This document shows, in pieces, positions 3,139 to 50,046 of a DNA stretch of 64,000 nucleotides. The position numbers and the translations under genes were made by a program. Within the stretch, counting starts at the first letter, position 1. Each line of letters begins with the position of its first letter. The DNA lies in contig NC_088714.1 of assembly GCF_963576615.1 (NCBI RefSeq), positions 34,132,643 through 34,196,642 of the forward strand. Reading direction: 5' to 3'. This DNA comes from Watersipora subatra (lineage: Eukaryota > Bryozoa > Gymnolaemata > Cheilostomatida > Watersiporidae). Below the pieces are notes generated by a model, which was not told the origin of the DNA, ran no database searches, and was given only the letters and a program-made list of their open reading frames with translations.

Positions 3139-3395
3139 CTGAACATCTGCCGAGAGACTAGCATGGCGTCCAGCAAGATTATGAACTGCGACAGCTACAC
3201 CAGGAGATAGGGAAGAGATGCGTCGCTGCAGCGAGTGTATAAGATCCAAGGCTAGCTCACAGCATGAATCTAAATCTTGAAGACAGGCGGTTGTTTTTCT
3301 CTTACTGCTCACATCATCAGCAAACTGCAAGTCGCTGAGTCGAGTCTCAACCATGTCGAGATAAGCAGCAGCTTCAGCAAGCACGACTGACGACT
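3139..3395 (-). CDS. spectrin-repeat gene exon w38
   Basis: SSVVLAEAAAYLDMVETRL to ASLSADVQ. Acceptor tcattttag, donor gtaagt; phase 1 in, phase 0 out. Confidence 0.87.
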
Positions 3396-4555
3396 CTAAA
3401 ATGAACAAAAAGATTAATATATAGCTTGTAAGAGTGTGATATAGTTTAAAGAGTACCCATTCATATTTTATCTATTTCAACGCGCGCACTCTCTCTTCTG
3501 TGTTCTTCAAGCCAGTTATTCAAGATGAAAATGGAAGTTACCATGCTGTAACCAGCCTAAGAGAAACGAGTCGACTGTTCATAAGAACACCAGGGAGAGC
3601 CTCAGGCTACGATGGGAGTCATCTTAGTTCCGATTCATTGTAAAGTTCACATTGTGTTCAGTTTTTGTCATGTTGAAGTTTAGGAACATATTAACTTTTA
3701 TCGGCCAAAGCTAAAAACTCGCCTATCTTTTGTGATTACGTTTGGTTCCAGCACGTCTACCTCGGCAAATACGAGTTACGTTTTGTACAGCTATGTTAGG
3801 CAATGATACTGCTCTGTACTTGTTGAAAATTTATTGTAGCAAAAGCTACACCAGCTATTTACGCCAGCTGACTCATCTGTGGATATGTTACTATGTTTGT
3901 TACTTCTCTGAACTAACTCTGCCCTGTTTGGAGAGGGATGATGAACAGTTTTTAAGACTGCTCTACAATTTCTGATTTACACTGTTCCGTTAAACAGCAG
4001 AACAGTTCTATGTTAGAATTACGTGACTAACGTTATTATAAAATAAAACAGTAGGTTAACAGGTTTGTGTTAACGCTTTTCGCCTATAACACAAACATAC
4101 CGCCTATGTAAATATACGACACAACAATCAGCAGAGTGAGAATGCTTGCACATCAATATGCACCTTTATTGAGTTATTGTCAGTAGAAAGACACATCTAC
4201 CTGAACGCCGAGACTAACAGATATACCGAATGTTTTGAAGCTATATAGATAGTACTTATTATGCATCGCATTTGACTTGACAATACGATACAGCGAGTAA
4301 GGTAGAACTGCTACAGTGTTTAGATTTCATTTCCTTCTGTCATTATACGTTTAAATACACGTCACATACTTTCCAGCTGAGTGCTTTGAGATATATGGTA
4401 TGGCTTGAAATATACACTAACTGAACAAAGGTAAGTAAGGATTGCTGTATTATCCATTGTGCTCAACTACATCTACGATAAATTAGCACCCGTAGAGTAC
4501 CATACTTTATACTTGATACCCTGCTGGTATGTACAATTCATATCCATTTAACCTT
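3396..4555. other. intron w37/w38, left part, nothing recognised
   Basis: Unremarkable AT-rich intron; a 77-codon plus-strand open frame at 3742 has no supporting features. Confidence 0.5.
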
Positions 4556-4800
4556 CACTATAATCTTTACTATAATAATAGCCGTGTCTATTGGCTTGTT
4601 CAAAGCCACGGCTGGAGGTTGGCAAAAAAGATCGCATCATATAGGATTCAAACTCCCAACTTCAAGTGTGGTAGACCAACACTCAAGAACTTTGCCAGCC
4701 AACCTCCCACTGACATGTCAGAATAACTGTACGTATCGCTATTACACCTGATCAACTTTTATGTCACATGAGACTGTCTTCAGGGTACTAGTATATATAA
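4556..4800 (-). mobile_element. tRNA-related SINE copy
   Basis: Best-preserved copy here. On the minus strand it holds an A-box-like TGGCAAAGTTCTTGAGTG and a B-box-like AGTTTGAATCC about 40 bp apart. The left end is TACTATAATAATAGCCGTG and the right end CAGGGTACTAGT. Confidence 0.65.
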
Positions 4801-4914
4801 TACTATTAGACTTAATAAATTAGGAAATAATGTCTGGAAGAAGCTACAATATTGTCTCATACAACGCAACCGTTTTCCTCATGTTCTTGTGTGTTACACG
4901 AGATATCACAACAC

Positions 4915-5110
4915 AACCTACCGTATTTTGTGTCCCTAGTATGCTTGCATATATTGCTTTGTGTCCTTGATATGCCTACATACTATGTCATGTCCACAAC
5001 ACAGTAAACACACTCGCTTGTGTTCTCAACATGCCTACACACACTGGTTCATGTCCACAACGTGATAGACACACTAACTAGCGTTCTTGAAAGGCCTGTA
5101 GAGACTAGTT
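4915..5110. repeat. degenerate tandem repeat
   Basis: Irregular copies of a block around CATGTCCACAAC and TGCCTACA, alternating tg/ca-rich units with about 30-35-bp spacing; strongly diverged. Confidence 0.5.
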
Positions 5111-5518
5111 CTTCAAGCTACATGTAAATATGAATGACAAGAAATCTTTGAAATTCAATTTCAGTGCTAGCATTACTGAGGCCAGATTGTATTATTTTAC
5201 ACATCTAAACTTTCCAAAACATTTCTTACGTTTAATATATGAAATGTTTACACGAAAATAATTCTCTGGTTTATCACACTAGTTTCTATTGTGTTCTAGT
5301 GTTCTGTTACTCGCTTAGATTCCTGGCCTCGGTTAGCCATTAGGTAAGGCCAGATTTTGCAGGCAGAAAAGTGGATTGAGCAAAGATTTTCCATTGAAAA
5401 ACCTCTGAGCAAATAATTTAAAGAGAATGAAAGTTTTATTAGTATTTAGAGCTCTCAGGTCCACCATTCAGCTGAATGTGTCAGTTAACTATCTTTGATC
5501 TGTCAGCTGAGTATGTAC
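5111..5518. other. intron w37/w38, right part, nothing recognised
   Basis: No element, array or coding signal seen. Confidence 0.5.
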
Positions 5519-5702
5519 CTTTGAGAGTAGAGAGTTTTACTTCCTGCTCTCCTAAAAGCCTCTTCGCTCTTGTATTCAACTGCTCAAAGTCCATAATCAA
5601 TTCGGCTGGTGACTTTTCTCCCGATCGCACAGCGGTGTCCATTTCTGACTGCAGGTCAGCGACCCTTTGTTGGCCTTCAGTCATCATCTCTTGCCTTAGT
5701 TT
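5519..5702 (-). CDS. spectrin-repeat gene exon w37
   Basis: KLRQEMMTEGQQRVADLQ to VKLSTLK. Acceptor atgctttag, donor gtacat; ends in phase 1, giving a Glu codon (g/ag) with w38. Confidence 0.86.
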
Positions 5703-5931
5703 CTAAAGCATATGATACGAATTAACAATGATATGAATCAACAGTACATTGAAACATATTGCGACATATTACTAAAATAACTTTTTCAATATGATCTCAT
5801 ACAAAATAGTCCATACAAAGGAGTGTATAATGTATACATCTCACTACACTACCAGATCAGTGAATTGATGGAGTGCACGAATAGGAGGCAACAGGAAAAA
5901 TGAGCTATTTGTTCCACATATTGACATGTAC

Positions 5932-6096
5932 CTTAAGGGTAACAATGTGCTCAGCTATGGCTTCTGAGTCTTCAGTCTGTGTGTCCAGTTCTGCAAGGGC
6001 TGCAACTCCTGACTCTACCAAGTCTTGTAAAGATTTTTGACAGCCCTCCAGTCGTTGCTGGTGATCAATGGAATGTTCGAGTTTGCCAAGAGAGAC
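5932..6096 (-). CDS. spectrin-repeat gene exon w36
   Basis: 55 codons, VSLGKLEHSIDHQQRLE to EHIVTLK. Acceptor gtcttggcag, donor gtacat; phase 0 at both ends. It is too short to appear as a long open frame. Confidence 0.85.
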
Positions 6097-6670
6097 CTGC
6101 CAAGACAGGTTAAAACTGATCTAATGCGAGTATATATTATTGTATTATATATTATATTATAATACAAGTGTATATTATAGTATTATATATTATATTGTAA
6201 AACAAATATATATTATTAAGGTAAAGCTACTGCTAATGTATGAATCATCAGATTTGATCTTCAATATGACTCAACTAAGACTGGTTTACAAATAGTGAAA
6301 ATAAAATAATGGTGTAAATATTGCCAAAATTAGACTGTGAACAACATATAGCATACTTGTGCGAACGTGTGACATATGATGAACTAGAAGCATACGACTA
6401 TACGCATTATGTCAATCTGATACTGTTTATGATACGACTTAGTATGCATATATATATACATATATGGGTATAAGATATGTAGGATATTGTATAGTACACA
6501 AAATATATAGGCCTAGCTCATGTGAGACAATGTCTGCTTATTGACTCATCTGAAGCATAACATATTGCTCATCTAAATCTAGATTTTAGATATGAAATAT
6601 GAGTCGTCTGAGTATAGATTGTATATATAATATATGAGTCATCCGAGTCTAGATATGACATATGACTTAC
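6097..6670. other. intron w35/w36, AT-rich
   Basis: Contains a short degenerate run of TATATTATATTA-type sequence at about 6125-6220; otherwise nothing. Confidence 0.55.
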
Positions 6671-6826
6671 CTGAGACCCAGAGGCAAGTTTGTCATATTT
6701 GTCAGCCAGTTTGACTATGTCACTTGTGATTCTGTGAGCTGATGGGCTTTTCTCAAGGAGAAGTCGCGCCTGTTCCTTGACTCCCCTAATGTCAGCCTCA
6801 CGCTCTTTAATCTCATCTAGCAGGTA
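6671..6826 (-). CDS. spectrin-repeat gene exon w35
   Basis: 52 codons, YLLDEIKEREADIRGVK to LASGSQ, a helix-B/C stretch following w34. Acceptor gttatgcag, donor gtaagt; phase 0 at both ends. Confidence 0.88.
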
Positions 6827-7119
6827 CTGCATAACAATAACTCAGACTAACAGAGATCCCTCACGCTCTAAACTTTGAAAGTGCTAAGCATCTTTATTAT
6901 GAATACTGGTCAATGGCAGTCTATCTGCTTATGAACAACACTTTCAATACGCCTCCATATTAGCTCAAGCAAGGTAGCCATAAAAACTGCAATATACAAT
7001 TGAGAAACTTATAGTCCATCTAACTTGATTAGGTGTCAAATTTTCAGTATACTAAAATGACAATCACAGAGTGTGTATTGTGTGTGACATAAAAACCTCA
7101 ATATACCGATAAGAGATTC

Positions 7120-7547
7120 AAAACAACAAATAAGTTTAGTACAATGAATAACAACAAATAAGTTTAGTACAATGAATAACAACAAATAAGTTTAGTACAA
7201 TGAATAACAACAAATAAGTTTAGTACAATGAATAACAACAAATAAGTTTAGTACAATGAATAACAACAAATAAGTTTAGTACAATGAATAACAACAAATA
7301 AGTTTAGTACAATGAATAACAACAAATAAGTTTAGTACAATGAATAACAACAAATAAGTTTAGTACAATGAATAACAACAAATAAGTTTAGTACAATGAA
7401 TAACAACAAATAAGTTTAGTACAATGAATAACAACAAATAAGTTTAGTACAATGAATAACAACAAATAAGTTTAGTACAATGAATAACAACAAATAAGTT
7501 TAGTACAATGAATAACAACAAATAAGTTTAGTACAATGAATAACACA
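7120..7547. repeat. 28-bp minisatellite, about 15 near-identical copies
   Basis: The unit starts ACAATGAATAACAACAAATA. Copies are virtually identical, implying recent expansion or gene-conversion homogenisation; the array stops about 20 bp before exon w34's donor. Confidence 0.95.
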
Positions 7548-7669: not shown

Positions 7670-8188
7670 CTGTAGGTAAATGTATGTCAATACATTCAGA
7701 TCATTGGTAATATAGTAAGTATATGTCAGCAGTTTATAAAGATGATGTATAAGGTTTCAATTTACATACTACGGTATAGTGTAAGGAATTAATGTATATA
7801 CCTTAATAAAATTACCAACTAATAAAATAACAAACTAATATAATATTATAAAAGTAACATACAGTAAGTATTTAGTTTAATCTCAGTTTCACACCACTTT
7901 TACTACAGTTGAAGTTTTGTTAGAGGCCAATGACATAACTGAGACTAACAGTTCACATAAATGATGATTGCCAAGGTATAAAGTAGGTGATGCAAGAAAA
8001 AAGTCATGATACAACTTATTAAAAAAAGCACATTTCTGACTCTTGACTGAGTGAAATGGAAGCATATCGACGCTTTTATAAGAAAACTCCAACAAAGAAG
8101 TAACAAGGTTAGACTAAATTAGACTAAACACTAGACTAGACGATTAGACTAAACACTATTTAAATGACAAATGTAAGAGCACTTGTAC
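7670..8188. other. intron w33/w34, nothing recognised
   Basis: AT-rich; a 68-codon minus-strand open frame has no support. A short duplicated AGACTAAACACTA motif occurs near 8120-8160. Confidence 0.5.
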
Positions 8189-8422
8189 CTGTCTGTCATA
8201 CTCTTCACTGTAGTCAGCAAACTCATCAGCGAGAGAGCTCAATGATGTCAGCGATGCATTAGCTAAATTCTCACGATGAATCAGACTTGTTCTGCATTTA
8301 TGAACCAAATCATCAAGAGAGGAACAACCTTCAGGACTTGTCTGCTCTTTGACTTCTGAGCACTTTCTGTTCACGTCATCCATTTTATCAGCGGCGTGCT
8401 TTTTGAATGTTTCAACTTGCAA
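8189..8422 (-). CDS. spectrin-repeat gene exon w33
   Basis: 78 codons, LQVETFKKHAADKMDDV to SEEYDRQ. Acceptor gttgcag, donor gtacaa; phase 0 at both ends. Confidence 0.86.
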
Positions 8423-21710: not shown

Positions 21711-22167
21711 TGCTTATATTCCTGTGCTATAACGTACTAACCTTAAGACTATCATTGTCCTCCCCTCTTCCTCTCATATATACCTACCTTCTTGTTCCCA
21801 GAGTTATATCCACTAGCAAGAGATACCATAGTTGTTTGTGGTATATTTACCTATCACTACCGGAATTGCAACAGAACTATTAATCGATTTCACTAAATTG
21901 TTTCAAATATAAAGCCTGAATCAGGGGGAGCAATTAAGGTTGGATGCTTTTTTTGCCAACCACCAGTGTTTTTGTAAGTCTTTTTTGTTTTCACTTTTAC
22001 AGAGAACAGGTGCTCTAGACCACTAGCCATGCTTCCTTATAAATTTGTTTTTGTAAACTTTCTTAATACATCTCATTTCATATAGAAGAATTTGATCTCA
22101 ATTTGTACAGATCATCAGATCTTACTAAGACATCATCGTCATCATCAGATCATGTTAAAACAATTAC
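21711..22167. other. intron w24/w25, proximal part
   Basis: Contains a GTGCTCTAGACCACTAGCCATG block (about 22010-22031) that resembles the GCATTCTAGACCACTAGGCAAC block at 63590, perhaps shared remnants of a tRNA-like repeat. Confidence 0.4.
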
Positions 22168-22488
22168 CTTGACTTTAGCCTCAAGCTGTAACTGACTCTG
22201 CAGTTCATGGGCATCCCTGCATATCTCAACATCCATTCTCTCAGCGTCTCCGAGCTGCTGCAGGCAAGCTGCCACTTGCCCGTCAAACTCACAGTGCTGT
22301 TGAGCACTCTCAGTCCACATCTGAACAGAGTCTTCAAGGTTTGAGGAGAGGTTTGTATGCTTCTTTTCCAGCGAACGATAGAGCTTACCCAGTTCGGCTA
22401 GCTGGTAGCGAGCGCTGAGCTGTTTTGTGTCCTCCTCCAGTTGAGGGAGGCTGTTCTTCACCGTAAGCTCATTCACAGTCAGCAGAGA
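22168..22488 (-). CDS. spectrin-repeat gene exon w24
   Basis: 107 codons, one repeat: SLLTVNELTVKNSLPQL to QLEAKVK, with VQMWTESAQQHCEFD. Acceptor ttcttttacag, donor gtaatt; phase 0 at both ends. The frame resumes cleanly after a 10.5-kb intron. Confidence 0.9.
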
Positions 22489-22720
22489 CTGTAAAAGAAT
22501 TTCAACCTTGCAGCTATTTGCAACTCGCTGAATGCTTGACTGAGTAAAGGTCATTTTTATTATTTCATGTAAGTTCTACAGTAAAATAACAAATATTTTT
22601 AAATTGTTGAACCAAGCTGTGTATCCATACTGCTCATCCATTAATGGAAAGTTTTTTGCCAACGTTTGATCTATTTAGCAACAACCTCATGCACATTACA
22701 ACATCACGTACATTACACTT

Positions 22721-22726
22721 CTCGTA
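22721..22726. repeat. target-site duplication, left copy
   Basis: CTCGTA directly abutting the left TIR; identical to 30884-30889. Confidence 0.8.
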
Positions 22727-23423
22727 AGTAGTATGTAGAGAGCAGATCTACACAAAAAAGTGACGGATCCAGCGGGGGGATAGAAAAAGGGGGTTGCGAA
22801 TTAAATTGGCTAGGGGTGTAGATTGAATTGCGTGGAGTTGAATGAGATGTTGGGGTTTAGGGGGAAATTGTGGTGTAGAGTAGGGGGTTGAATTCGAGGG
22901 GGTATGGATCCGCTCCTGGCGTAATCGGCGGATTATCTGTGGATGAGTCATCCGATTAGTGGGGTATGAGTCATCCGATTAAACGTGGATTATCGCGGGA
23001 TTAGTCGGGGGAATCGTTGCGGATTAGTCGGCCGAATCGTCGCGGATTATCGGTGGATTAGTGAGGGGTGAATATCTGGGACATCGAGGGCTGGTTGGTT
23101 TTCCGGAGTGGATCTCGCGGATTATCGAGGAGAGCGAGAGATTACCGGATGAGTGAGGGGGTTAATATCTGGGACACCGAGGGGTTGATTTTCTGGAGAT
23201 TGTTATATATTTGAAACATTGAATATATATGAGAAAGTGTTTATGTACAAAGTTATTTTTTTGAAGATTTGATGTTTTTGTAATGTTGAAGCTCTTGAAT
23301 GGTTAAGAATTTTAAGGATTTTATTTTTGGTTTTTTTTGTATATATGTAAGATTGAAATTTGTTGGAGAAATTAATATGTTGAATGAAAGATCAGTTTTA
23401 TTACAAAATTATTCACTTTAAAA
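22727..23423 (+). repeat. left terminal inverted repeat of the Polinton-like element
   Basis: 697 bp. The outer 450 bp are GC-richer than the host and hold about ten GGATTA/GATTAGT words, two TGAGTCAT words (22944 and 22967) and an internal duplication (GAATATCTGGGACATCGAGG versus TTAATATCTGGGACACCGAG). The inner 240 bp are AT-rich. Confidence 0.92.
23397..23402 (-). terminator. candidate polyadenylation signal in the left TIR
   Basis: AATAAA on the minus strand, about 235 bp beyond the stop codon of the 305-residue protein gene and just inside the TIR. No closer copy was seen. Confidence 0.3.
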
Positions 23424-23633
23424 GATATATTTATATGTATTATTCATTATTTCCATCATCATTTTGTTTCGATAAAAATAAAATAGTTTATGTTTAACTT
23501 GAAATATATGAAAATGTTCAAGTAGATAGGTCACAATAAAGATAATATAGTATAAATGAAACATTGAATATATATATAAGAAAATGATCATGTACAATCT
23601 TTAAAACGAAGTTTGTATCGAGTTGTTCATCAA

Positions 23634-24551
23634 TCACTCATCGTCATCGGAAATATCTATGATAGCAGGATCCTTTTTGCATTGTGCCGAACTCTCGGAA
23701 AATCTGCTTGCTTCTTCATGTCCCATGACTACTACATCGTAGTATTCGCGAGTATTGTGAGATGTTACTAGTCCCTTGTATATAATGATACGCGGATAAT
23801 TTTCTTTCAACGAAAGGGCATATCTCGAAGGCATCGTTAAAGTTCCTTGAACTTCCTCTCCATCAACTTTGGTTGAAAATGCTACAGTTGGTACCACATT
23901 CACCTTGCCTTCAGCATCTTTGTATTCACTTGTTCCAACATTGTGATAGTAGAAAATAGATGGTGCTTTGAACTCCTTGAGATGACGAGTCTCAAAAAGT
24001 TGTATAAGTTTTTCAATTCTCTTCGTTCTCAGAATGGCTAGAGTGCGTTTCATGTCCAAGGGAGTTGAGGTTCCTTCTGTTACTCGTCTTAAGTCATGGT
24101 AACTTCCCTGTCCATTACTCTTAGGTTTTAATCCAAGATATACCATAATACTTGGATAAGACAGCGATGCATCTAGAAATCGTTTTGGAGCAAATACAGC
24201 AGTAGATTTACTAATCCCATTTTCCACATAGTTGAAGTGAATGATACAGCACGCTCCATGGATCGAATGAGCTTCTTCCGTTTTTGTCACCTCCATAATC
24301 AATCCTACTGAAAGGTCTGTCATTTTCTGCAGTGATTTTGCTTCCATTAAAGTATCCTTACTTAATGTTCTTAACTTGTCTGCCACATCTTTTGCCCTTT
24401 GCTCCAAATTCGTTTCGATTTGGTTGGATTTCTTCTTCTTCGTTGGAGGAGTCGTGTTAGAAAGAGTTACAGGTGAAATTTTCTTTTTCGACATCTTCAC
24501 TGAACTATTCGATCCAGGTTTTATCACTCCAGATTGAGTATTATCCTCCAT
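23634..24551 (-). CDS. uncharacterised 305-residue protein with duplicated domain
   Basis: An intact single-exon frame, the only long one in the element. Residues 1-50 are basic, with a likely nuclear localisation signal (PPTKKKK, 35-41). A domain appears twice: residues about 95-156 and about 197-274. Each copy has a P-x-R-F/Y step, then YPxIxxYxGL, then (S/E)Y(H/Y)D(L/V): APKRF...YPSIMVYLGL...SYHDL versus MPSRY...YPRIIIYKGL...EYYDV. The C-terminus, PAIIDISDDDE, is an acidic tail with the form of a SUMO-interacting motif. I do not recognise the family; it is not a known Polinton core protein. A nuclear DNA-binding or replication-accessory role is a guess from the basic start, acidic tail and adjacent palindrome array. 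The frame is undamaged, so it is probably still functional or recently so. Confidence 0.8.
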   Translation of the reverse strand: MEDNTQSGVIKPGSNSSVKMSKKKISPVTLSNTTPPTKKKKSNQIETNLEQRAKDVADKLRTLSKDTLMEAKSLQKMTDLSVGLIMEVTKTEEAHSIHGACCIIHFNYVENGISKSTAVFAPKRFLDASLSYPSIMVYLGLKPKSNGQGSYHDLRRVTEGTSTPLDMKRTLAILRTKRIEKLIQLFETRHLKEFKAPSIFYYHNVGTSEYKDAEGKVNVVPTVAFSTKVDGEEVQGTLTMPSRYALSLKENYPRIIIYKGLVTSHNTREYYDVVVMGHEEASRFSESSAQCKKDPAIIDISDDDE

Positions 24552-24620
24552 AGTTGTGTAGTGTGTTAATTCTCTGAGTTTGAATGAAGAATTGATATCG
24601 TTTTAGTAAAATTCTGCTGG

Positions 24621-24627
24621 TTATATA
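24621..24627 (-). promoter_or_regulatory. TATA box candidate for the 305-residue protein gene
   Basis: TATATAA on the minus strand, about 70 bp upstream of the ATG at 24551, between the gene and the palindrome array. Spacing would give a 40-50-base leader. Confidence 0.4.
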
Positions 24628-24693
24628 CAATTCTCCTCATCAAATGATTAATGAGTTTTGATAAATTTAGCTGCATCATCCATAATATCAGAA

Positions 24694-25456
24694 GACTTTT
24701 CGCGAAATTGAAAAACGCGAAATTCAATTTCGCGAAAGTTGACTTTATAATATATAATGTGTAATTTCGCGAAATTCACTTTCGCGAAATTCACTTTCGC
24801 GAAAGTTGACTATATAATATATATAATGTGTAATTTCGCGAAATCCAATTTCGCGAAATTCACTTTCGCGAAACTCAATTTCGCGAAAGTTGACTATATA
24901 ATATATATAATGTATAATTTCGCGAAATCCAATTTCGCGAAATTCACTTTCACGAAATTCAATTTCGCGAAAGTTGACTATATAATATATAATGTGTAAT
25001 TTCGTGAAATCCAATTTCGTGAAATTCAATTTCGCGAAAGTTGACTATATAATATATATAATGTGTAATTTCGCGAAATCCAATTTCGCGAAATTCACTT
25101 TCGCGAAACTCAATTTCGCGAAAGTTGACTATATAATATATAATTTCGTGAAATCCAATTTCGCGAAATTCACTTTTCGCGAAATTCAATTTCGCAAAAG
25201 TTGACTATATAATATATATATAATGTGTAATTTCGCGAAATCCAATTTCGCGAAATTCACTTTCGCGAAACTCAATTTCGCGAAAGTTGACTATATAATA
25301 TATAATTTTGTGAAATCCAATTTCGCGAAATTCACTTTTCGCGAAATTCAATTTCGCGAAAGTTGACTATATAATATATATATAATGTGTAATTTCGCGA
25401 AATCCAATTTCGCAAAATTCACTTTCGCGAAATTCAATTTTCGCGAAAGTTGAGTG
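24694..25456. repeat. phased TTTCGCGAAA palindrome array
   Basis: Close to 30 exact copies of the 10-bp palindrome TTTCGCGAAA plus about eight one- or two-base variants. They are grouped in sets of up to four with 5-bp spacers (TCCAA, TTCAC, CTCAA/TTCAA), so centres are 15 bp apart. Sets are separated by GTTGAC plus an AT-only stretch (TATATAATATATATAATGTG), giving a 68-87-bp larger period, about nine sets. It lies between two divergent genes. It resembles replication-origin iterons, viral homologous-region enhancers or clustered E2F-like sites; which one cannot be told from sequence. Confidence 0.93.
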
Positions 25457-25623
25457 AGACAAGATGGATTAGAAGTGATTTATAGCTTTTGTCCGGGTTC
25501 CACCTCCTTGAACTTGACTAGTATAAATACAGCCAAGTTTGATGGGCTCACCATTATCGAGACTTTTTTTTTTCCTGGAGTTATTATACATGAAATTCTC
25601 AGAACTTCGAACTATTTCTATAC

Positions 25624-25808
25624 CTAACTGGATTATATATCTCACAAAAGTTTGGATTAATTCTACAATTTGGATATCTACGTATAATCTTCTCTCAGAA
25701 CTTTGGATTATATTTCTCCGAACTAACTGGATTATATATCTCACAAAAGTTTGGATTAATTCTACAATTTGGATATCTATGTATAATCTTCTCTCAGAAC
25801 TTTAGATT
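25624..25808. repeat. 99-bp tandem duplication
   Basis: About 1.9 copies of a block with AACTGGATTATATATCTCAC and TTGGATATCTA; lies upstream of the zinc-finger gene. Confidence 0.85.
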
Positions 25809-25823
25809 ATCTCTGTTTCACCG

Positions 25824-25833
25824 TATTATATAT
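25824..25833 (+). promoter_or_regulatory. TATA-like sequence before the zinc-finger gene
   Basis: TATTATATAT about 30 bp before the proposed ATG at 25860, which would leave almost no leader; weak. Confidence 0.25.
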
Positions 25834-25859
25834 CTCCGAAATTTGAATACAACAAGGAA

Positions 25860-26270
25860 ATGTATCCGGCATCTTCCCATTCAGAAGGAGACTGGAGCAA
25901 ATCTGATGCGGTAAGTTGATTTACAATAATTGGTGGAAAAAATTTTTAATGAATGAATAAATGTAGAGAGAATAGTAAAATGAGATTTTTAATTCTTGGC
26001 AGCTGGAAATCTTCCTCAAAGATGTTCAAGCTTTCACGAGAGCATAATTTAATTTCATCGGAAAATTCTACTCCTTCCACTTCAATTGATAATAGAGAAA
26101 GAAGCAGAAGTAGGGAAAGAAGTGCATCATCCGTTTCAGCTAATAAATATATCTGCTTAGAATGTTCGACTTCATTTAACAAAAAATCAATCCTCAAAAG
26201 ACATGTTAAACACATTCATCTCCAATCGAATGAAAGTTCAGACCTTCATTTTATGAATGGTGAATCATAA
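25860..26270 (+). CDS. small C2H2 zinc-finger protein, probably two exons
   Basis: A single classical finger, YICLECSTSFNKKSILKRH plus VKHIH (C-x2-C-x12-H-x4-H), preceded by an Arg/Ser-rich stretch (RERSRSRERSASS). The open frame itself starts at 25953. I prefer a spliced form: ATG at 25860, exon 25860-25910 (MYPASSHSEGDWSKSDA), donor gtaagt, and acceptor at ...ctcaaag (exon from 26022) or ...ttcaag (from 26031). Both acceptors keep the finger in frame, and the protein would be about 97-100 residues. Transcribed divergently from the 305-residue gene across the palindrome array, so it may bind or regulate that array; that is inference. Single-finger C2H2 proteins have many roles. Confidence 0.55.
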
Positions 26271-26409
26271 TCTGTAACTTCGACTTATAACCGAATAGAG
26301 CATTTGCAAAATCTCGAACACCACTTCAAGATATACTTATTTCAGAATTTTATCAATTGGATTTGTTATCAGCTCTGACTCATTTAGTCTCCCAAGTAGT
26401 TCAGTGTCA

Positions 26410-29400
26410 GTGCATGGAACTAGCAAGTCTACTAGTTTAATCTAATTAATAGATCTATGGGTGCTTTACTACTTCATGGAATAATTCTCAATGTACTGAT
26501 TACTCATGATGATCTCTCACAGTGCATGGAACTAGCAAGTCTACTAGTTTAATCTAATTAAAGGATCCATGGGTGCTTTACCACTTCATGGAATAATTCT
26601 CAATATACTGATTACTCATGGTGATCCCTCACAGTGCATGGAACTAGCAAGTCTACTAGTTTAATCTAATTAAAGGATCCATGGGTGCTGTACCACTTCA
26701 TGGAATATTTCTCAATATACTGATTACTCATGATGATCTTTCGCAGTGCATGGAACTAGCAAGTCTACTAGTTTAATCTAATAAAAGGATCTATGGGTGC
26801 TTTACTACTTCATGGAATAATTCTCAATATACTGATTACTCATGATGATCTTTCGCAGTGCATGGAACTAGCAAGTCTACTAGTTTAATCTAATTAAAGG
26901 ATCTATTGGTGCTTTACCACTTCATGGAATAATTCTCAATATACTGATTACTCATGATGATCCCTCACAGTGCATGGAGCTAGCAAGTCTACTAGTTTAA
27001 TCTATTTAAAGGATCCATGGGTGCTTTACCACTTCATGGAATAATTCTCAATATACTGATTACTCATGATGATCCCTCACAGTGCATGGAACTAGCAAGT
27101 CTACTAGTTTAATCTATTTAAAGGATCCATGGGTGCTTTACCACTTCATGGAATAATTCTCAATATACTGATTACTCATGATGATCTCTCACAGTGCATG
27201 GAACTAGCAAGTCTACTAGTTTAATCTAATTAAAGGATCTATGGGTGCTTTACCACTTCATGGAATAATTCTCAATATACTGATTACTCATGATGATCTT
27301 TCGCAGTGCATGGAACTAGCAAGTCTACTAGTTTAATCTAATAAAAGGATCTATGGGTGCTTTACTACTTCATGGAATAATTCTCAATATACTGATTACT
27401 CATGATGATCTTTCGCAGTGCATGGAACTAGCAAGTCTACTAGTTTAATCTAATTAAAAGATCTATGGGTGCTTTACCACTTCATGGAATAATTCTCAAT
27501 ATACTGATTACTCATGATGATCTCTCACAGTGCATGGAACTAGCAAGTCTACTAGTTTAATCTAATAAAAGGATCTATGGGTGCTTTACCACTTCATGGA
27601 ATAATTCTCAATATACTGATTACTCATGATGATCTTTCGCAGTGCATGGAACTAGCAAGTCTACTAGTTTAATCTAATAAAAGGATCTATGGGTGCTTTA
27701 CTACTTCATGGAATAATTCTCAATATACTGATTACTCATGATGATCTTTCGCAGTGCATGGAACTAGCAAGTCTACTAGTTTAATCTAATTAAAGGATCT
27801 ATTGGTGCTTTACCACTTCATGGAATAATTCTCAATATACTGATTACTCATGATGATCCCTCACAGTGCATGGAGCTAGCAAGTCTACTAGTTTAATCTA
27901 TTTAAAGGATACATGGGTGCTTTACCACTTCATGGAATAATTCTCAATATACTGATTACTCATGATGATCCCTCACAGTGCATGGAACTAGCAAGTCTAC
28001 TAGTTTAATCTATTTAAAGGATCCATGGGTGCTTTACCACTTCATGGAATAATTCTCAATATACTGATTACTCATGATGATCTCTCACAGTGCATGGAAC
28101 TAGCAAGTCTACTAGTTTAATCCAATTAAAGGATCTATGGGTGCTTTACTACTTCATGGAATAATTCTCAATATACTGATTACTCATGATGATCTCTCAC
28201 AGTGCATGGAACTAGCAAGTCTACTAGTTTAATCCAATTAAAGGATCTATGGGTGCTTTACTACTTCATGGAATAATTCTCAATATACTGATTACTCATG
28301 ATGATCTTTCGCAGTGCATGGAACTAGCGAGTCTACTAGTTTAATCTAATTAAAGGATCCATGGGTGCTTTACCACTTCATGGAATAATTCTCAATATAC
28401 TGATTACTCTTGATGATCTCTCACAGTGCATGGAACTAGCAAGTCTACTAGTTTAATCTAATTAAAGGATCTATGGGTGCTTTACCACTTCATGGAATAA
28501 TTCTCAATATACTGATTACTCATGATGATCTCTCACAGTGCATGGAACTAGCAAGTCTACTAGTTTAATCTAATTAAAGGATCTATGGGTGCTTTACCAC
28601 TTCATGGAATAATTCTCAATATACTGATTACTCATGATGATCTCTCACGGTGCATGGAACTAGCAAGTCTACTAGTTTAATCTAATTAAAGGATCTATGG
28701 TGTTTTACCACTTCATGGAATAATTCTCAATATACTGATCACTCACGATGATCTCTCACAGTGCATGGAACTAGCAAGTCTACTAGTTTAATCTAATTAA
28801 AGGATCTATGGGTGCTTTACCACTTCATGGAATAGTTCTCAATATACTGATTACTCATGATGATCTTTCACAGTGCTTGAAACTAGCAAGTCTACTAGTT
28901 TAATCTAATTAAAGGATCTATGGGTGCTTTACCGCTTCATGGAATAATTCTCAATATACTGATTACTCATGATGATCTTTCACAGTGCATGGAACTAGCA
29001 AGTCTACTAGTTTAATTCAATTAAAGGATCCATGGGTGCTGTACCACTTCATGGAATAGTTCTCAATATACTGATTACTCATGATGATCTCTCACGGTGC
29101 ATGGAACTAGCAAGTCTACTAGTTTAATCTAATTAATGAATCCATGGGTTCTTTACCATTTCATGGAATAGTTCTCAATATACTGATTACTCATGATGAT
29201 CTCTCACAGTGCATGGAACTAGCAAGTCTACTAGTTTAATCCAATTAAAGGATCTATGGGTGCTTTACCACTTCATGGAATAATTCTCAATATACTGATT
29301 ACTCATGATGATCTCTCACAGTGCATGGAACTAGCAAGTCTACTAGTTTAATCTAATTAAAGGATCCATGGGTGCTTTACTACTTCATGGAATAATTCTC

Positions 29401-30185
29401 AATATACTGATTACTCATGATGATCTCTCACAGTGCATGGAACTAGTAAGTCTACTAGTTTAATCTAATAAAAGGATCTATGGGTGCTGTACCACTTCAT
29501 GGAATAATTCTCAATATACTGATTACTCTTGATGATCTCTCACAGTGCATGGAACTAGCAAGTCTATTAGTTTAATCTATTTAAAGGATCTATGGTGTTT
29601 TACCACTTCATGGAATAATTCTCAATATACTGATTACTCATGATGATCTCTCACAGTGCATGGAACTAGCAAGTCTACTAGTTTAATCTAATTAAAGGAT
29701 CTATGGGTGCTTTACCACTTCATGGAATAGTTCTCAATATACTGATTACTCATGATGATCTCTCACGGTGCATGGAACTAGCAAGTCTACTAGTTTAATC
29801 TAATTAAAGGATCTATGGGTGCTTTACCACTTCATGGAATAATTCTCAATATACTGATTACTCATGATGATCTCTCACAGTGCATGGAACTAGTAAGTCT
29901 ACTAGTTTAATCTAATTAAAGGATCTATGGGTGCTTTACCGCTTCATGGAATAGTTCTCAATATACTGATTACTCATGATGATCTCTCACGGTGCATGGA
30001 ACTAGCAAGTCTACTAGTTTAATCTAATTAAAGGATCTATGGGTGCTTTACCACTTCATGGAATAATTCTCAATAAACTGATTACTCATGATGATCTCTC
30101 ACAGTGCATGGAACTAGCAAGTCTACTAGTTTAATCTAATTAAAGGATCTATGGGTGCTTTACTACTTCATGGAATAATTCTCAA
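26410..30185. repeat. 112-bp satellite array, about 34 copies
   Basis: Head-to-tail units, each with GTGCATGGAACTAGCAAGTC, TACTAGTTTAATC and GGTGCTTTACCACTTCATGG. Diagnostic variants (for example GCATGGAGCTAGC at 26970 and 27866, and ATAAAAGG at 26781 and 27677) recur exactly 896 bp apart, so an 8-unit block was duplicated. No open frame spans it. It fills almost half of the element and stops abruptly at the right TIR. Confidence 0.96.
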
Positions 30186-30883
30186 TTTTAAAGTGAATAA
30201 TTTTGTAATAAAACTGATCTTTCATTCAACATATTAATTTCTCCAACAAATTTCAATCTTACATATATACAAAAAAAAACCGAAAATAAAATCCTTAAAA
30301 TTCTTAACCATTCAAGAGCTTCAACATTACAAAAACATCAAATCTTCAAAAAAATAACTTTGTACATAAACACTTTCTCATATATATTCAATGTTTCAAA
30401 TATATAACAATCTCCAGAAAATCAACCCCTCGGTGTCCCAGATATTAACCCCCTCACTCATCCGGTAATCTCTCGCTCTCCTCGATAATCCGCGAGATCC
30501 ACTCCGGAAAACCAACCAGCCCTCGATGTCCCAGATATTCACCCCCCCACTAATCCACCGATAATCCGCGACGATTCGGCCGACTAATCCGCAACGATTC
30601 CCCCGACTAATCCCGCGATAATCCACGTTTAATCGGATGACTCATCCCCCACTAATCGGATGACTCATCCACAGATAATCCGCCGATTACGCCAGGAGCG
30701 GATCCATACCCCCTCGAATTCAACCCCCTACTCTACACCACAATTTCCCCCTAAACCCCAACATCTCATTCAACTCCACGCAATTCAATCTACACCCTAG
30801 CCAATTTAATTCGCAACCCCCTTTTTCTATCCCCCCGCTGGATCCGTCACTTTTTTGTGTAGATCTGCTCTCTACATACTACT
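30186..30883 (-). repeat. right terminal inverted repeat of the Polinton-like element
   Basis: Reverse complement of the left TIR with about three substitutions and one extra base. It starts right where the last satellite unit is cut off (after TTCTCAA). Confidence 0.92.
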
Positions 30884-30889
30884 CTCGTA
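30884..30889. repeat. target-site duplication, right copy
   Basis: CTCGTA directly abutting the right TIR; identical to 22721-22726. Confidence 0.8.
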
Positions 30890-30927: not shown

Positions 30928-32177
30928 CAGTAATACTTCAACTTACGAGTGCTCCAACGTACGAGAAACTTGAGATACGAGCCAGCTTTTATGCAAGTTT
31001 TAGCACTAACATACGAGCCATATTTGAGATACGAGCACGTGAGTCAGTTGCCAAGTATGCTGGAGGCGTTTTATGACAACAGCATCAATCCGTATTTTTC
31101 AACTGCACAGGTTATGCTTCTGTACCGTGTTTTGTGCACGCTTTTCAGTGCAGAATTATGTGAATTAAAAGTACTGTGGGTAGACCGAAAGTTTGCCAGT
31201 AAAATGAAAAATAATGCAAAGAAAAAACAAATGATAACAATTCATATTAAACGGAAAATTATTGAAAAATATGCAAAATGTGTATGCATGATTGAGCTAG
31301 CTCAGCAATATGACAGAAATACATCCACAATTATCAAACAGAAGAATTATATTCAGGGCATTTAGCTCGCAAAAGTACTAACCGTAGTTTCTAAACGGCG
31401 CGGCGATCTTCACCACCGCTGATGGAGAGACCACTCAGGCATTGGATATAAGATAAACAATTGGCCGGTGACAGCGTAACTGAAACTACGCTACTTGAAA
31501 AGGCCGGTGCTATCTATCAAAACTATAAAAACAGACATTCGGACAAGTTGGCTAGTGGTCGTGCATTAAACCTTTGTGACGACACCTGTGTTCGTCCTAA
31601 TCGCGACATGTTGAAAGGGCGACAAAGGCAAACGTCCTTAGATAGGTTCATCTTAAAACGGCCGGCTAGTCATGAAAGCGAAACAAAGGAAAAATTAGCT
31701 AACTAGCGAGAAACTTCAGACTATGAACGCCGAAGAAATTTTAATTACGTTAAGTTAAAAATGAAAGTTTGCTTTTAGATTTGCTTCTAAGTTTGTTTTT
31801 TAACACTTTGATAAAATCCAAATTTATCAAAGTCAACTGTTGTAATGAAGGATAACTTATATATCTCTCTCTGGCAAATGCTAGCGTTAGCTGCTATTGT
31901 ATGTATTTAATTTTACATTTTAATTTGACACATTTCCTTGCATTATTTTTTAGTTGTTGTTTTTTGAAAGCATGTGGTAAGTTAGGACAATAACCAACAT
32001 GTTCTTTCTGTTACAATATCTTGTTTTGAGTGTTTTATTTGCATTTTACAGAGTATGGAAACCAATAAATATATATTTAATTGTTCTATATATAAATAAA
32101 TTGCACCAACATGCGAGTAAATTGACATACGAGCTCAGTCTCGGAACGCATTAAGCTCGTAAGTTCAAGTATGACTG
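30928..32177 (+). mobile_element. internally deleted Tigger/pogo-type DNA transposon
   Basis: Ends CAGTAATACTTCAACTTACG and, inverted, CAGTCATACTTGAACTTACG, with flanking TA (30926-30927 and 32178-32179) as the duplicated target. Inside each end are further ACGAG words typical of Tigger termini. Length is 1,250 bp against about 2.4 kb for autonomous Tiggers. It sits 38 bp from the Polinton-like element. Confidence 0.82.
31204..31706 (+). pseudogene. Tigger transposase remnant
   Basis: First part (31204-31365) reads ITIHIKRKIIEKYAKC...IELAQQYDRNTSTI, the CENP-B/psq-type helix-turn-helix that starts Tigger transposases. A later part in another frame reads QLAGDSVTETTLLEKAGAIY, the second DNA-binding domain, and ends RQRQTSLDRFILKRPA, the usual C-terminal tail. 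The DDE catalytic core between them is missing and stops or frame changes intervene, so it is inactive. Confidence 0.8.
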
Positions 32178-43296: not shown

Positions 43297-43735
43297 AAAA
43301 CATGAAACTGATAAATCGTGTAGAAATGTTTAGAGTTAGTAACTGGAAGCTATATGCTATAAGGTTATATGCTGAGTATTGTCCACATATTTTCTCTTTT
43401 CCTTTCACTGAACGCAGGTAAACATCGCTCTGCCATACACTTTGCGTACCTTAAAGTTTGTCAGTATAAAACACATGGTTGAAATCATATATGTCGACCA
43501 AATGTTAAAATTAACAACAAAGACAGTATTAAACTTATCATCTCAAGATGCCAAAAAATACAGAAGTGGACCTTACTACTGTTTTTTTCAACATGATAAA
43601 TGAAAGAAAAAGCACCTGCTAATGCTTGACCAAAAAAAGTGATGAATAAAAGACACCTGCTAGCACATGGCAAAAATAATTAATAATAGGCACATGATCG
43701 TACCTGACAAAATTATTTATTGAAAGGACCATTAC

Positions 43736-44059
43736 CTGAGCATGTTTTACTTGTTTTTCCTTTTCCTCAAACGTCGCCTGTAACTTAAAGTGAGTGCGAG
43801 CGTGTTCCTCAAGGACACTGAGCTCTCCAGAAAGGCTGTTAGACATCGAAGAATAGGTTTCCCATAGATAGAGACAATGTTCTAATTGCTGACAGAGCTG
43901 GTCAGCTGATAATTTCATAGCTTCCAGCTCACTTTCTGCATCAGCATACCGTGACTTTAGTCGCTCTTCCAGTGTGTCTCCACACAATCGGCAAACGACC
44001 TCTTGGTGAGTCTTAAGTTTAGCTAGCAGTTCCGCTAAAGAGCTCATATCCCGCAAAAC
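43736..44059 (-). CDS. spectrin-repeat gene exon w16
   Basis: 108 codons, one repeat in one exon: VLRDMSSLAELLAKLK to EKQVKHAQ, with YLWETYSSMSNSL. Acceptor tttcatggcag, donor gtaatg; phase 0 at both ends. Confidence 0.9.
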
Positions 44060-44360
44060 CTGCCATGAAAAAGTTGACATAAGACTCAAATTTGGTTAAA
44101 ATACAATACATTTAATGTAATATTAGGTACATATGACTGAATGATACCCTATCTTTAAAGTTACAATACTAATAAATTCTCATAATCAGTATTGACTTTT
44201 GTCATAATTTGAAGTTAGTTTGCCCAAAGTTCATTTCTATCATAATATTTGTAGCCTTGAGAGTTTAATTAAAATTTGCATGTAGGTCTAAATAAGGCTG
44301 TTAAAAATCTCATCATCAAAAGAATAAAAAAGATACGCGTCAAACCAATTCTAGGTGTAA

Positions 44361-44469: not shown

Positions 44470-45000
44470 AACCCTGATAAATCTTTACTATTATAAGAGC
44501 CACGACCGTCTGAAGCTACTGTTGGAGCATTAGGAAAAAAGATTGCATCGCACGGGATTCGAGCACAGACATTAAGCATACCAGCCAGGCATGTTACTAT
44601 CTGCACCACTAACCCACCTATTAAGCATACCAGCCAGGCATGTTACTATCTGCACCACTAACCCACCTATTAAGCATGCCAGCCAGGCATGTTACTATCT
44701 GCACCACTAACCCACCTATTAAGCATACCAGCCAGGCATGTTACTATCTGCACCACTAACCCACCTATTAAGCATGCCAGCCAGGCATGTTACTATCTGC
44801 GCCACTAACCCACCTATTAAGCATGCCAGCCAGGCATGTTACTATCTGCACCACTAACCCACCTATTAAGCATACCAGCCAGGCATGTTACTATCTGCAC
44901 CACTAACCCACCTTGCAGCATTTTTTGGAATAATTACGCAGATACTTATTACAGGTGACAATCTCTCATGACACCGGACTGCCTGGGTCTCTCATGACAC
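44470..45000 (-). mobile_element. tRNA-related SINE copy with internal expansions
   Basis: Left end CTTTACTATTATAAGAGCCA and a B-box-like GGGATTCGAGC (GCTCGAATCCC on the minus strand). The A-box half is amplified (44572-44915), and the right end CTCTCATGACACCGGACTGC starts the 26-bp array. Confidence 0.68.
44572..44915. repeat. 49-bp minisatellite, 7 copies, inside a SINE
   Basis: Units TTAAGCATACCAGCCAGGCA plus TGTTACTATCTGCACCACTA plus ACCCACCTA. On the minus strand each unit carries the GTGGTGCAGATAG A-box-like part of the SINE. Confidence 0.95.
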
Positions 45001-45662
45001 CGGACTGCCTGGGTCTCTCATGACACCGGACTGCCTGGGTCTCTCATGACACCGGACTGCCTGGGTCTCTCATGACACCGGACTACCTGGGTCTCTCATG
45101 ACATCGGACTGCCTGGGTCTCTCATGACACCGGACTGCCTGGGTCTCTCATGACACCGGACTGCCTGGGTCTCTCATGACACCGGACTGCCTGGGTCTCT
45201 CATGACACCGGACTGCCTGGGTCTCTCATGACACCGGACTGCCTGGGTCTCTCATGACACCGGACTGCCTGGGTCTCTCATGACACCGGACTACCTGGGT
45301 CTCTCATGACACCGGACTGCCTGGGTCTCTCATGACACCGGACTGCCTGGGTCTCTCATGACACCGGACTGCCTGGGTCTCTCATGACACCGGACTGCCT
45401 GGGTCTCTCATGACACCGGACTGCCTGGGTCTCTCATGACACCGGACTGCCTGGGTCTCTCATGACACCGGACTGCCTGGGTCTCTCATGACACCGGACT
45501 GCCTGGGTCTCTCATGACACCGGACTACCTGGGTCTCTCATGACACGGACTGCCTGGGTCTCTCATGACACCGGACTGCCTGGGTCTCTCATGACACCGG
45601 ACTGCCTGGGTCTCTCATGACACCGGACTGCCTGGGTCTCTCATGACACCGGACTGCCTGGG
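44962..45662. repeat. 26-bp minisatellite, about 27 copies
   Basis: Units TCTCTCATGACACCGGACTG plus CCTGGG, almost identical, with a recurring CTACC variant. It starts from the SINE's right end and stops about 130 bp from exon w15. Confidence 0.96.
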
Positions 45663-45791
45663 TACTCGTAAGTTGTAAAATTTAATGAGAAGTATGTGAA
45701 CTTTCTATCACTCCATTTTCAGTCTTAGAACTTTTGGCAAGAGAAATGAAACATGCACAGGAGTTTGTAAGCTTGCCAGAGTGTCTATTAC

Positions 45792-46100
45792 CTTGCTCTT
45801 AGATATCCTGTTCTCAATCATAAAGGCATCTGAAGAGGTGAGACTGTTGATCGCGGTAAGAGAGCTCATTCGACTAGCCATAGCCTGAGCTAAACTGACG
45901 CTAGTGGCAGTCCATGCCTTCAACTCGTCACAAGCTGTTGTCAGCTCAGTAGCCTTAGCACCACAAGTTGTGCAAACCTCGGCAAGTTGGTTGATATGGC
46001 TAGCAAGTTGCTTAGCAACAGAATCGCTAGGCAGACCTTTGGCAGGACCCAATGAAGTCTCACATTCGTTTGTATGTGTCAAAGCATCCTCCCGTAGTGT
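45792..46100 (-). CDS. spectrin-repeat gene exon w15
   Basis: 103 codons in one exon, about one whole repeat: TLREDALTHTNECETSL to NRISKSK, with DELKAWTATSVSL. Acceptor tactcgcag, donor gtaata; phase 0 at both ends. Confidence 0.89.
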
Positions 46101-46586
46101 CTGCGAGTAGATATATTTTTGGGATATATTACACTCTACCGCATTATGATGGTTACATGGTACTATGCCATGTCACATTATTTTATATTGCAATAAAATA
46201 GCATACGAACAGCGAACATTACTATGTGTTAAAAACTGTTCTGCATTTCAACACGAATGCTCATCTAATGGAAAGGTGACAAAATTAATAAAAAGGCCTT
46301 CATAGAGGCATAGTAGGTTATGTTTGTAATGCCTCCGCAAGGGAGGAAAACTCTGTATGGTTAAAGGGGGTCAGGGCTTTTTTCCATTGCAGACAACCAC
46401 TACTATTGCTATAAGCCAAGAGAAAAACTACACCAGTCAGTTGTTCAAGGTTTATTCATTTTTTAAAGATTTAATTTCATGAAGTTGTCTGCTCGGTCAC
46501 TAATATTGAATGCACCGCAATAAAAGTGATGAGGATGTGGAAAAAATACTCAACAAACCAGGCAAGCAAATGCATCTCTCACTCAC
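46101..46586. other. intron w14/w15, nothing recognised
   Basis: No feature seen. Confidence 0.5.
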
Positions 46587-48415: not shown

Positions 48416-48947
48416 CTGCAAGGTATAACTTGTAATCAGAAAGATTGCCATTTGGTGGCAACGCTATTGAGGGAAGCAACCAAGCAACATCATACAGGGT
48501 ATTTTTTCGTGTCTACTGGCACTAGCAGTAGACAGGGAATTTTATGTTTTATGTCATGAGTTTAGCCCACAAAAATTAACAGTGTTTTAGGTGACTACAA
48601 ATGTTTTTTTGAGATGCTTCACTCTAAAAAATTACTTTCATTTCACATTTTCACCAGTTGAATAGTTAACAATGAAAGTAATAGGTCAAGGTCATTCGAA
48701 ACGGCTAATCTTCAATTTCTGTAAATGAGGATAGATTTATAGTAACGGTCACATTTATAATACCTAGTGTGACTTTCTAAGACATAGTTCAACACGTGCA
48801 GAGCAACAGCAAAGAAGGATTACATAATGAAACAGAAGTGGTATAAATAAACAACTCCAAACAGAGACGCATATTTCTACTCGATGCTATATGAGTATAT
48901 GTTGTTTCAACACATCAACTCATGTACTGTAGACATATTCTACCGAA

Positions 48948-49696
48948 CACACACTCCATCTTTACTCATGTACTGTAGACATATTCTACCGAACACACAC
49001 TCCATCTTTACTCATGTACTGTAGACATATTCTACCGAACACACACTCCATCTTTACTCATGTACTGTAGACATATTCTACCGAACACACACTCCATCTT
49101 TACTCATGTACTGTAGACATATTCTACCGAACACAAACTCCATCTTTACTCATGTACTGTAGACATATTCTACCGAACACACACTCCATCTTTACTCATG
49201 TACTGTAGACATATTCTACCGAACACACACTCCATCTTTACTCATGTACTGTAGACATATTCTACCGAACACACACTCCATCTTTACTCATGTACTGTAG
49301 ACATATTCTACCGAACACACACTCCATCTTTACTCATGTACTGTAGACAGATTCTACCGAACACACACTCCATCTTTACTCATGTACTGTAGACATATTC
49401 TACCGAACACACACTCCATCTTTACTCATGTACTGTAGACATATTCTACCGAACACAAACTCCATCTTTACTCATGTACTGTAGACATATTCTACCGAAC
49501 ACACACTCCATCTTTACTCATGTACTGTAAACATATTCTACCGAACACACACTCCATCTTTACTCATGTACTGTAGACATATTCTACCGAACACACACTC
49601 CATCTTTACTCATGTACTGTAGACATATTCTACCGAACACACACTCCATCTTTACTCATGTACTGTAGACATATTCTACCGAACATACACTCCATC
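48948..49696. repeat. 46-bp minisatellite, about 16 copies
   Basis: Units TTTACTCATGTACTGTAGAC plus ATATTCTACCGAACACACAC plus TCCATC, with rare single-base variants (CACAAAC, CAGATT). Confidence 0.96.
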
Positions 49697-50046
49697 TTTA
49701 CATATGCAAAGGCAATGAAAAGCATATTTAGACAATAGCAACAATAGCTTTACATATGCAAGTACATTCACTTTATATGGGAGTAGGAAACCCGGTTGTA
49801 TGAATGCTATTCTATGTGTCAAATACATAGAGAGTAGCCATATGAAGTATGCCAAAGTGCTATTTGACATAGTAAATGGCCACCAAGTTTTTCATTGTCA
49901 AGCAACCATCTCAAACATTCTCCACAAGGATAAATTTTAGCGATTGAAGGTCATGCACACCTGCAAAACATGTCATTTTGAATAGTGGCATGTCTGAACT
50001 CAACTGAGTAAGATTTCAAGGAAAGATTTCAAGGAAAGTTTATCAC

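Follow-up and report, generated by a model that had tools for sequence, protein, structure and literature searches.

A recombinant, satellite-like Polinton copy in the bryozoan Watersipora subatra and its probable place in a bipartite Polinton-like family

What kind of element has the ends of a Polinton and hardly any Polinton genes, and what might move it? The question is raised by a 64,000-nucleotide stretch of the genome of the bryozoan Watersipora subatra (NCBI RefSeq assembly GCF_963576615.1, contig NC_088714.1, positions 34,132,643 to 34,196,642; hereafter the window, in whose numbering its features are given), which holds an insertion of 8,157 bp at 22727-30883. The insertion begins with AGTAGT, ends with ACTACT and is flanked by target-site duplications of CTCGTA at 22721-22726 and 30884-30889, the right a perfect 6-bp copy of the left. 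Its terminal inverted repeats (TIRs), 697 bp long on the left (22727-23423, forward strand) and 698 bp on the right (30186-30883, reverse strand), are identical in 693 of 699 aligned columns, with three gap columns. An earlier note on this DNA had read these borders as Polinton-type, and its reading of the ends, the repeats and the duplication is borne out. With the element removed, the joined flanks contain a single CTCGTA inside a run of tandem repeats of about 17 bp (ACAACATCACGTACATT, by eye), plausibly the empty site. The answer proposed here, with a probability of roughly three in four, is that the insertion belongs, as a non-autonomous copy resembling a satellite, to a Polinton family (Maverick/adintovirus-like) in two parts, with PolB on one class of element and integrase and capsid genes on another.

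The earlier note had credited the insertion with a zinc-finger gene and with none of the Polinton core genes, and neither statement holds. Within the 105-codon frame concerned (25953-26270, forward strand), positions 25980-26243 correspond to PolB codons 1 to 88, and the 88 residues are 95% identical to the public protein P0004. The frame being the N-terminus of PolB, an independent zinc-finger gene was rejected, as was a Polinton lacking core genes. At about 26242 the relationships of the sequence change: 142 bp to the left match L031 and L065, two elements that carry PolB, at 99%, and 179 bp to the right match the satellite-bearing element L033, also at 99%. This switch indicates that the window copy is a recombinant, in which a PolB-class element, from its left end as far as PolB codon 88, is joined to the right-hand portion of a relative that bears a satellite. 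The junction and a spacer (26242-26407) lead into a 112-bp satellite of 33.8 copies (26408-30186, forward strand), which occupies the place of the remaining PolB and the downstream genes of the PolB class and is directly abutted by the right TIR. Judged from its sequence, the insertion is thus a recombinant, non-autonomous, satellite-like copy with near-identical TIRs. The 88 PolB codons were recognised through homologues, and a Pfam scan of the element's 305-codon gene and PolB remnant gave no integrase or capsid match. The other frames of at least 60 codons in the element are confined to TIRs, repeats and spacers, or overlap these two.

A genome search with the TIR, as advised in the earlier note, revealed many other copies. 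The first 27 bp, allowing up to two mismatches, are present at 390 forward and 393 reverse places in the assembly, and the control gave 0 in both orientations. From these 783 end places 100 were listed, of which 82 make 41 facing pairs of 7,230-15,433 bp and 18 are unpaired; the 41 end-defined elements referred to below derive from this sample. When the 708-bp left end served as query and the best 40 of 681 candidates were scored, there were 48 matches, 40 of them long (at least 697 query bases at 97-100% identity, the window copy included) and eight short, of 47 bp. All 30 loci kept from that search, again including the window copy, have the AGTAGT terminus. When the borders of other copies were checked, a perfect 6-bp duplication was present in 17 of 18 elements read at both ends (among them the window copy, L031, L032, L033, L037/L038, L039/L040 and a 15.4-kb element), the exception being the 15.4-kb element with five matching bases. 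Taken together, the 27-bp counts and the perfect duplications argue that the observation is not due to chance. Two loci, L002 (C3:29578383) and L009 (C3:23906825), have the same 12 flanking bases, perhaps because a chromosomal segment was duplicated or because the target is itself repeated.

One class of these elements, read in L031/L034 (11,122 bp, duplication CATGTT) and in L065 (10 kb fetched of a 10,990-bp element), carries PolB. L031 has the left TIR, the 305-residue gene, a palindrome array and 99-bp repeats in common with the window copy, and then continues into PolB, which lies in frames at 3289-4152, 4153-7437 and 7719-8312. The first two of these are joined in P0004 (1,374 residues, 97% identity over the part searched), and in L065 the first part of PolB is a single open frame of 1,381 codons. 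A frameshift at 7437/7719 in L031 was rejected, as four homologues end at this point or close to it and L065 is interrupted there too; the ending of the homologues before the third frame makes an intron likely there. Besides the 305-residue gene and PolB, the class has stop-to-stop frames of 206, 188 and 215 codons, of which the 188-codon frame is split in L031 and the 215-codon frame is represented by 171 codons in the part of L065 fetched. The PolB of L031 contains exonuclease and polymerase motifs, together with DNLCFFRC at 140 and HFSFI at 249 of the frame, candidate motifs of an N-terminal OTU-like domain. There are 701 homologues, among the closest being those of Branchiostoma, holothurians, sea stars and cnidarians, and many have a precomputed PF03175, and from motifs and homologues the PolB of the family is predicted to be of the protein-primed type. 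In the genome, the best 42 of 363 PolB candidates were scored; all were 96-100% identical and 31 were without a stop. Two integrase queries found no match in L031, L034 or L065.

A second class, whose ends match and whose integrase is of the Polinton type (rve), as the check proposed in the earlier note had sought, was read in L037/L038 (10,925 bp, duplication AACAAC) and L064 (10 kb fetched of a 10,770-bp element). Its genes are an integrase, an ATPase, a minor capsid protein (mCP), a major capsid protein (MCP), a protease and further frames. The integrase of L037 matches rve (PF00665, 3e-9) and a C-terminal chromodomain (PF00385, 3.6e-8), and that of L064 is a single frame of 365 codons. The names ATPase, minor capsid and protease, like pX and pVI, are presumptive ones that we take from motif, gene order and matches to another Polinton clade in the same genome; Pfam gave no match above the cut-off for the ATPase, mCP and protease frames. 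The MCP has seven homologues at E 1e-5 or better, of which P0124 is 97% identical and the others at most 34%. The model of P0124 (pLDDT 67.5, pTM 0.72) matches, at E 4e-15 to 2e-12, capsid proteins with the double jelly-roll fold from PBCV-1, Sputnik and mavirus, and MELD virus and adintovirus proteins are among the structural matches in BFVD. Two PolB queries, both of which detect the PolB of the other clade at 34%, found none in L037, L038 or L064. The best 142 of 739 integrase candidates were scored in the genome: 115 places belong to this clade, 23 rows at about 41% to another, and four are second pieces of places already counted; among near-full-length rows of at least 96% identity, 80 of 87 had no stop counted. 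A search for rve scored the best 150 of 5,324 candidates, many of them lying, by eye, in long retrotransposon-like frames.

What joins the two classes is their ends and an array. The terminal 28 bp of the window TIR (22727-22754, starting AGTAGT, and by TIR alignment 30856-30883 on the reverse strand, ending ACTACT) are identical in 28 of 28 positions to those of L037, and beyond them there is no similarity, the L037 TIR being about 486 bp long with 476 identical columns. Between the two divergent genes of the window copy (24698-25453) lies the palindrome array that had been noticed at the outset together with the satellite, and both are confirmed. The decamer TTTCGCGAAA has 29 copies across the window, every one inside the array, at 24698-25448, and homologous arrays are present in the helper elements read, with 19 copies in L031, 20 in L065, 17 in L037 and 18 in L064; the arrays of the window and L037 are 83% identical over 553 columns in inverted orientation. 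The decamer may resemble E2F-type sites; a paper search on it gave nothing bearing on it among the literature listed.

The modules themselves are kept apart. Their separation was read directly in four elements, two per class, and among the matches listed nine of the 41 end-defined elements have integrase, six have PolB, none has both and 26 have neither. The integrase elements measure 10,626-11,542 bp (n=9) and the PolB elements 10,788-11,422 bp (n=6). The sole listed places where PolB and integrase lie within 40 kb are two adjacent elements, 1,526 bp apart (C2:23215828-23239397), each with its own ends and its own duplication, TATAGA and TACAGT. A control is provided by a Polinton of the other clade (L041/L042), in which PolB, ATPase, pX, integrase, mCP, MCP and protease lie within about 10 kb; the gene order of the integrase/capsid class is that of this control minus PolB, and neither TTTCGCGAAA nor a TIR was found in the 19.5 kb of it fetched. 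On this reading of the sequences, the family consists of complementary gene sets with common ends, a common array and separate insertions with 6-bp duplications, and common ends with PolB on one class and integrase and capsid on the other are what a multipartite genome would have.

Both classes, of about 11 kb each, might instead be complementary deletion products of one lost or unsampled Polinton of 15-20 kb, decaying leftovers with no working two-part system. Deletion and recombination do occur in the family, as the junction in the window and the satellite classes attest; the listing covers 100 of the 783 end places, and of the 41 elements 26 have no class assigned. Yet the TIRs of the classes are unrelated past 28 bp, so that deletion alone would not produce both, and some genes of the PolB class were not found in the integrase/capsid class. 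For both modules, most of the copies scored are at least 96% identical and most lack stops, and the longest of the 41, a satellite element of 15.4 kb, contains a frame of 1,414 codons that looks Gypsy-like by eye. This explanation is unlikely. Elements of 14-15 kb had been considered as full Polintons and were rejected, as they contain satellites and long frames resembling retroelement insertions by eye. The longest (L035/L036, C3:67564588-67580020) departs from PolB at a point different from that of the window copy.

Another explanation, which appears quite improbable, is that the elements with PolB form a transposon in its own right, a self-replicating parasite that took over the ends of the integrase/capsid class, that the latter class replicates with the PolB of another, conventional Polinton, and that the two were never one genome. 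A homologue of PolB at 60% occurs in a metagenome contig, while the homologues of the MCP, leaving aside P0124 at 97%, reach 34% at most, a difference that leaves room for the two modules to differ in history. The homologous arrays of both classes speak against such an origin, as do the gene order of the integrase class, which is that of the control Polinton minus PolB, and the lack of TTTCGCGAAA in the 19.5 kb fetched of the conventional Polinton. Finally, the ends, TIRs and duplication of a non-autonomous copy would also suit an 8-kb element without core genes living as a parasite of one complete Polinton, but the retained PolB remnant and the distribution of helper functions, among the copies read, over two classes of element render this hardly tenable; from the earlier proposal of mobilisation by a full Polinton there survive the non-autonomous nature of the copy and the integrase-bearing elements with matching ends, and not the single helper, PolB and integrase being together in none of the elements classified.

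Under the bipartite reading, PolB would replicate, by protein priming, any molecule bearing the 28-bp end, and the integrase would insert all element classes. The array between the 305-residue gene and PolB may act as a two-way promoter or origin. The capsid module would package segments of about 11 kb separately, one per particle, and the near-equal sizes of the classes are a hint of such a packaging limit. The window copy, having retained its ends, would be replicated and integrated in trans. A fuller version of this account, towards which the balance of evidence tilts slightly, is that of a multipartite, chromosome-integrating animal double-stranded DNA virus or transposon with two equal-sized segments (one for replication, one for integration and capsid) and possibly a third, each inserted separately by way of the 28-bp end, and with a numerous population of satellites, the window copy among them, arising by recombination between segments and riding in trans. 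The possible third segment is the class with an exon beginning MSTRD: L032, L033 and L039/L040 have the same TIR and 68-bp or 112-bp satellites, and could represent a third segment or a satellite bearing a regulator.

Several observations weigh against the bipartite account. Replication and integration in trans and packaging would follow here by analogy with known families. Scans of IMG/VR with the 305-residue protein, PolB and MCP gave no relative, and hence no known particle or free segment. As the best 42 of 363 PolB candidates and the best 142 of 739 integrase candidates were scored, 26 elements among the 41 count as unassigned and not as negative; 100 of 783 ends were listed, and an unsplit parent may lie elsewhere. 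The copies read are not without blemish, since the PolB of L031 carries one stop and there is one stop each in the integrase of L037 and the minor capsid gene of L064. Between the two TIRs of L031, 506 of 526 aligned columns are identical (96%), so that L031 is older than the window copy. The Pfam scan of the L031 PolB frame itself gave no PF03175. For the 305-residue gene the pooled dN/dS is 1.7, on few changes among nine recent copies, and constraint is not indicated. The control Polinton is one copy, in which PolB, ATPase and pX are doubled in tandem around a 200-N gap, and the doubling may have arisen in the assembly.

The 305-codon gene itself (23634-24551, reverse strand) is an open frame, as the earlier note had stated, and belongs to the PolB class. 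Among 18 loci with a full-length gene, 15 have the frame open, at 305 codons in nine and 304 in six. Its homologues are P0001-P0003, of which P0002 and P0003 are from Watersipora subatra. There was no Pfam family up to E 1, no PHROG and no convincing PDB match. Two OB-like halves are suspected: aligned to each other they score 47, matched by one of 2000 shuffles, and the AlphaFold model has a pLDDT of 36.8, with OB folds suggested by strand order alone. In L032 and L033 another exon (MSTRDNRK...) is found, which in P0002 is spliced to the C-terminal part of the gene. Two further frames look, by eye, secreted or glycoprotein-like, namely the 215-codon frame of the PolB class (from about 9911 in L031 into L034) and a 296-codon frame at L037:550-1440; lying near an end of each helper class, they are possible surface proteins.

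In the window copy, direct repeats of 99 bp (25624-25810), of which L031 has more copies, lie ahead of PolB. Phage records searched with the TIR and an Rfam search gave nothing useful. Immediately to the right of the element is a 143-codon frame (30934-31365, forward strand) with weak Pfam matches only, presumably CENP-B/Tigger-like in appearance. Frames at 22150-22575, 43619-44095 and 45708-46172 (reverse strand) are coiled-coil-like by eye, with weak Pfam matches for the one scanned, and may be exons of one host gene, in which case the element would sit in an intron. The flanking host DNA also contains near-perfect minisatellites at 7122-7545 (28 bp x 15, 100%), 44962-45663 (26 bp x 27, 98%) and 48918-49701 (46 bp x 17, 98%).

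Compared with known systems, as far as the available passages of the literature describe them, the family has most in common with Polintons/Mavericks and adintoviruses. Intact vertebrate Mavericks are single pieces of 12,723-24,620 bp, with AGTAGT//ACTACT as their most frequent end motif; the window copy has the same (AGT)2//(ACT)2 ends, the 6-bp duplication and long TIRs, and the family as a whole has PolB, integrase, ATPase, capsid and protease (PMC8097293). Unlike in these elements, the gene set is divided over two classes of about 11 kb, and the window copy has 88 PolB codons only. Adintoviruses, defined by a PolB with an OTU-like domain and a Hexon, also encode an integrase (PMC11071296). 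The rve integrase with its C-terminal chromodomain and the double jelly-roll MCP are in keeping with them (PMC11071296), as may be the candidate OTU-like motif in PolB (PMC11071296, PMC11071308), whereas PolB and the capsid and integrase genes lie here on separate elements. Placement of replication and virion genes on separate segments recalls bidnaviruses and the Acheta domesticus segmented densovirus (PMC11071296, PMC10267136), the latter with one segment per particle (PMC10267136). In contrast to these viruses, with their parvovirus-type capsid, the present family has a double jelly-roll capsid, an integrase and chromosomal insertion with a 6-bp duplication, and NS1 was absent among the Pfam matches of the 18 frames scanned.

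With virophages of the mavirus type and other satellites, the window copy has in common that it is a small integrated element that would rely on helper functions. The helpers differ, being elements of the same family with a common terminal 28 bp and not a giant virus. No report of a split (segmented, bipartite or multipartite) Polinton, Maverick or adintovirus was found in the literature searched, most subscription journals lying outside it; the search for non-autonomous Polintons returned none, and that for bryozoan Polintons gave no split element among the literature listed. Many double-stranded DNA viruses of eukaryotes are regarded as having Polintons close to their ancestry (PMC7805220). 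A split Polinton, if true, would allow ideas on how segmented genomes arise to be tested against an integrated record, including the timing of the split, the sequences that need to be shared and the origin of satellites. With identities of 96-100% among the PolB copies scored and of at least 96% at 87 integrase places, living colonies might reveal whether the segments move jointly. The Polintons of the literature passages are single elements, and the proposed split family of Watersipora subatra beside an unsplit Polinton in the same genome offers a comparison between the two.

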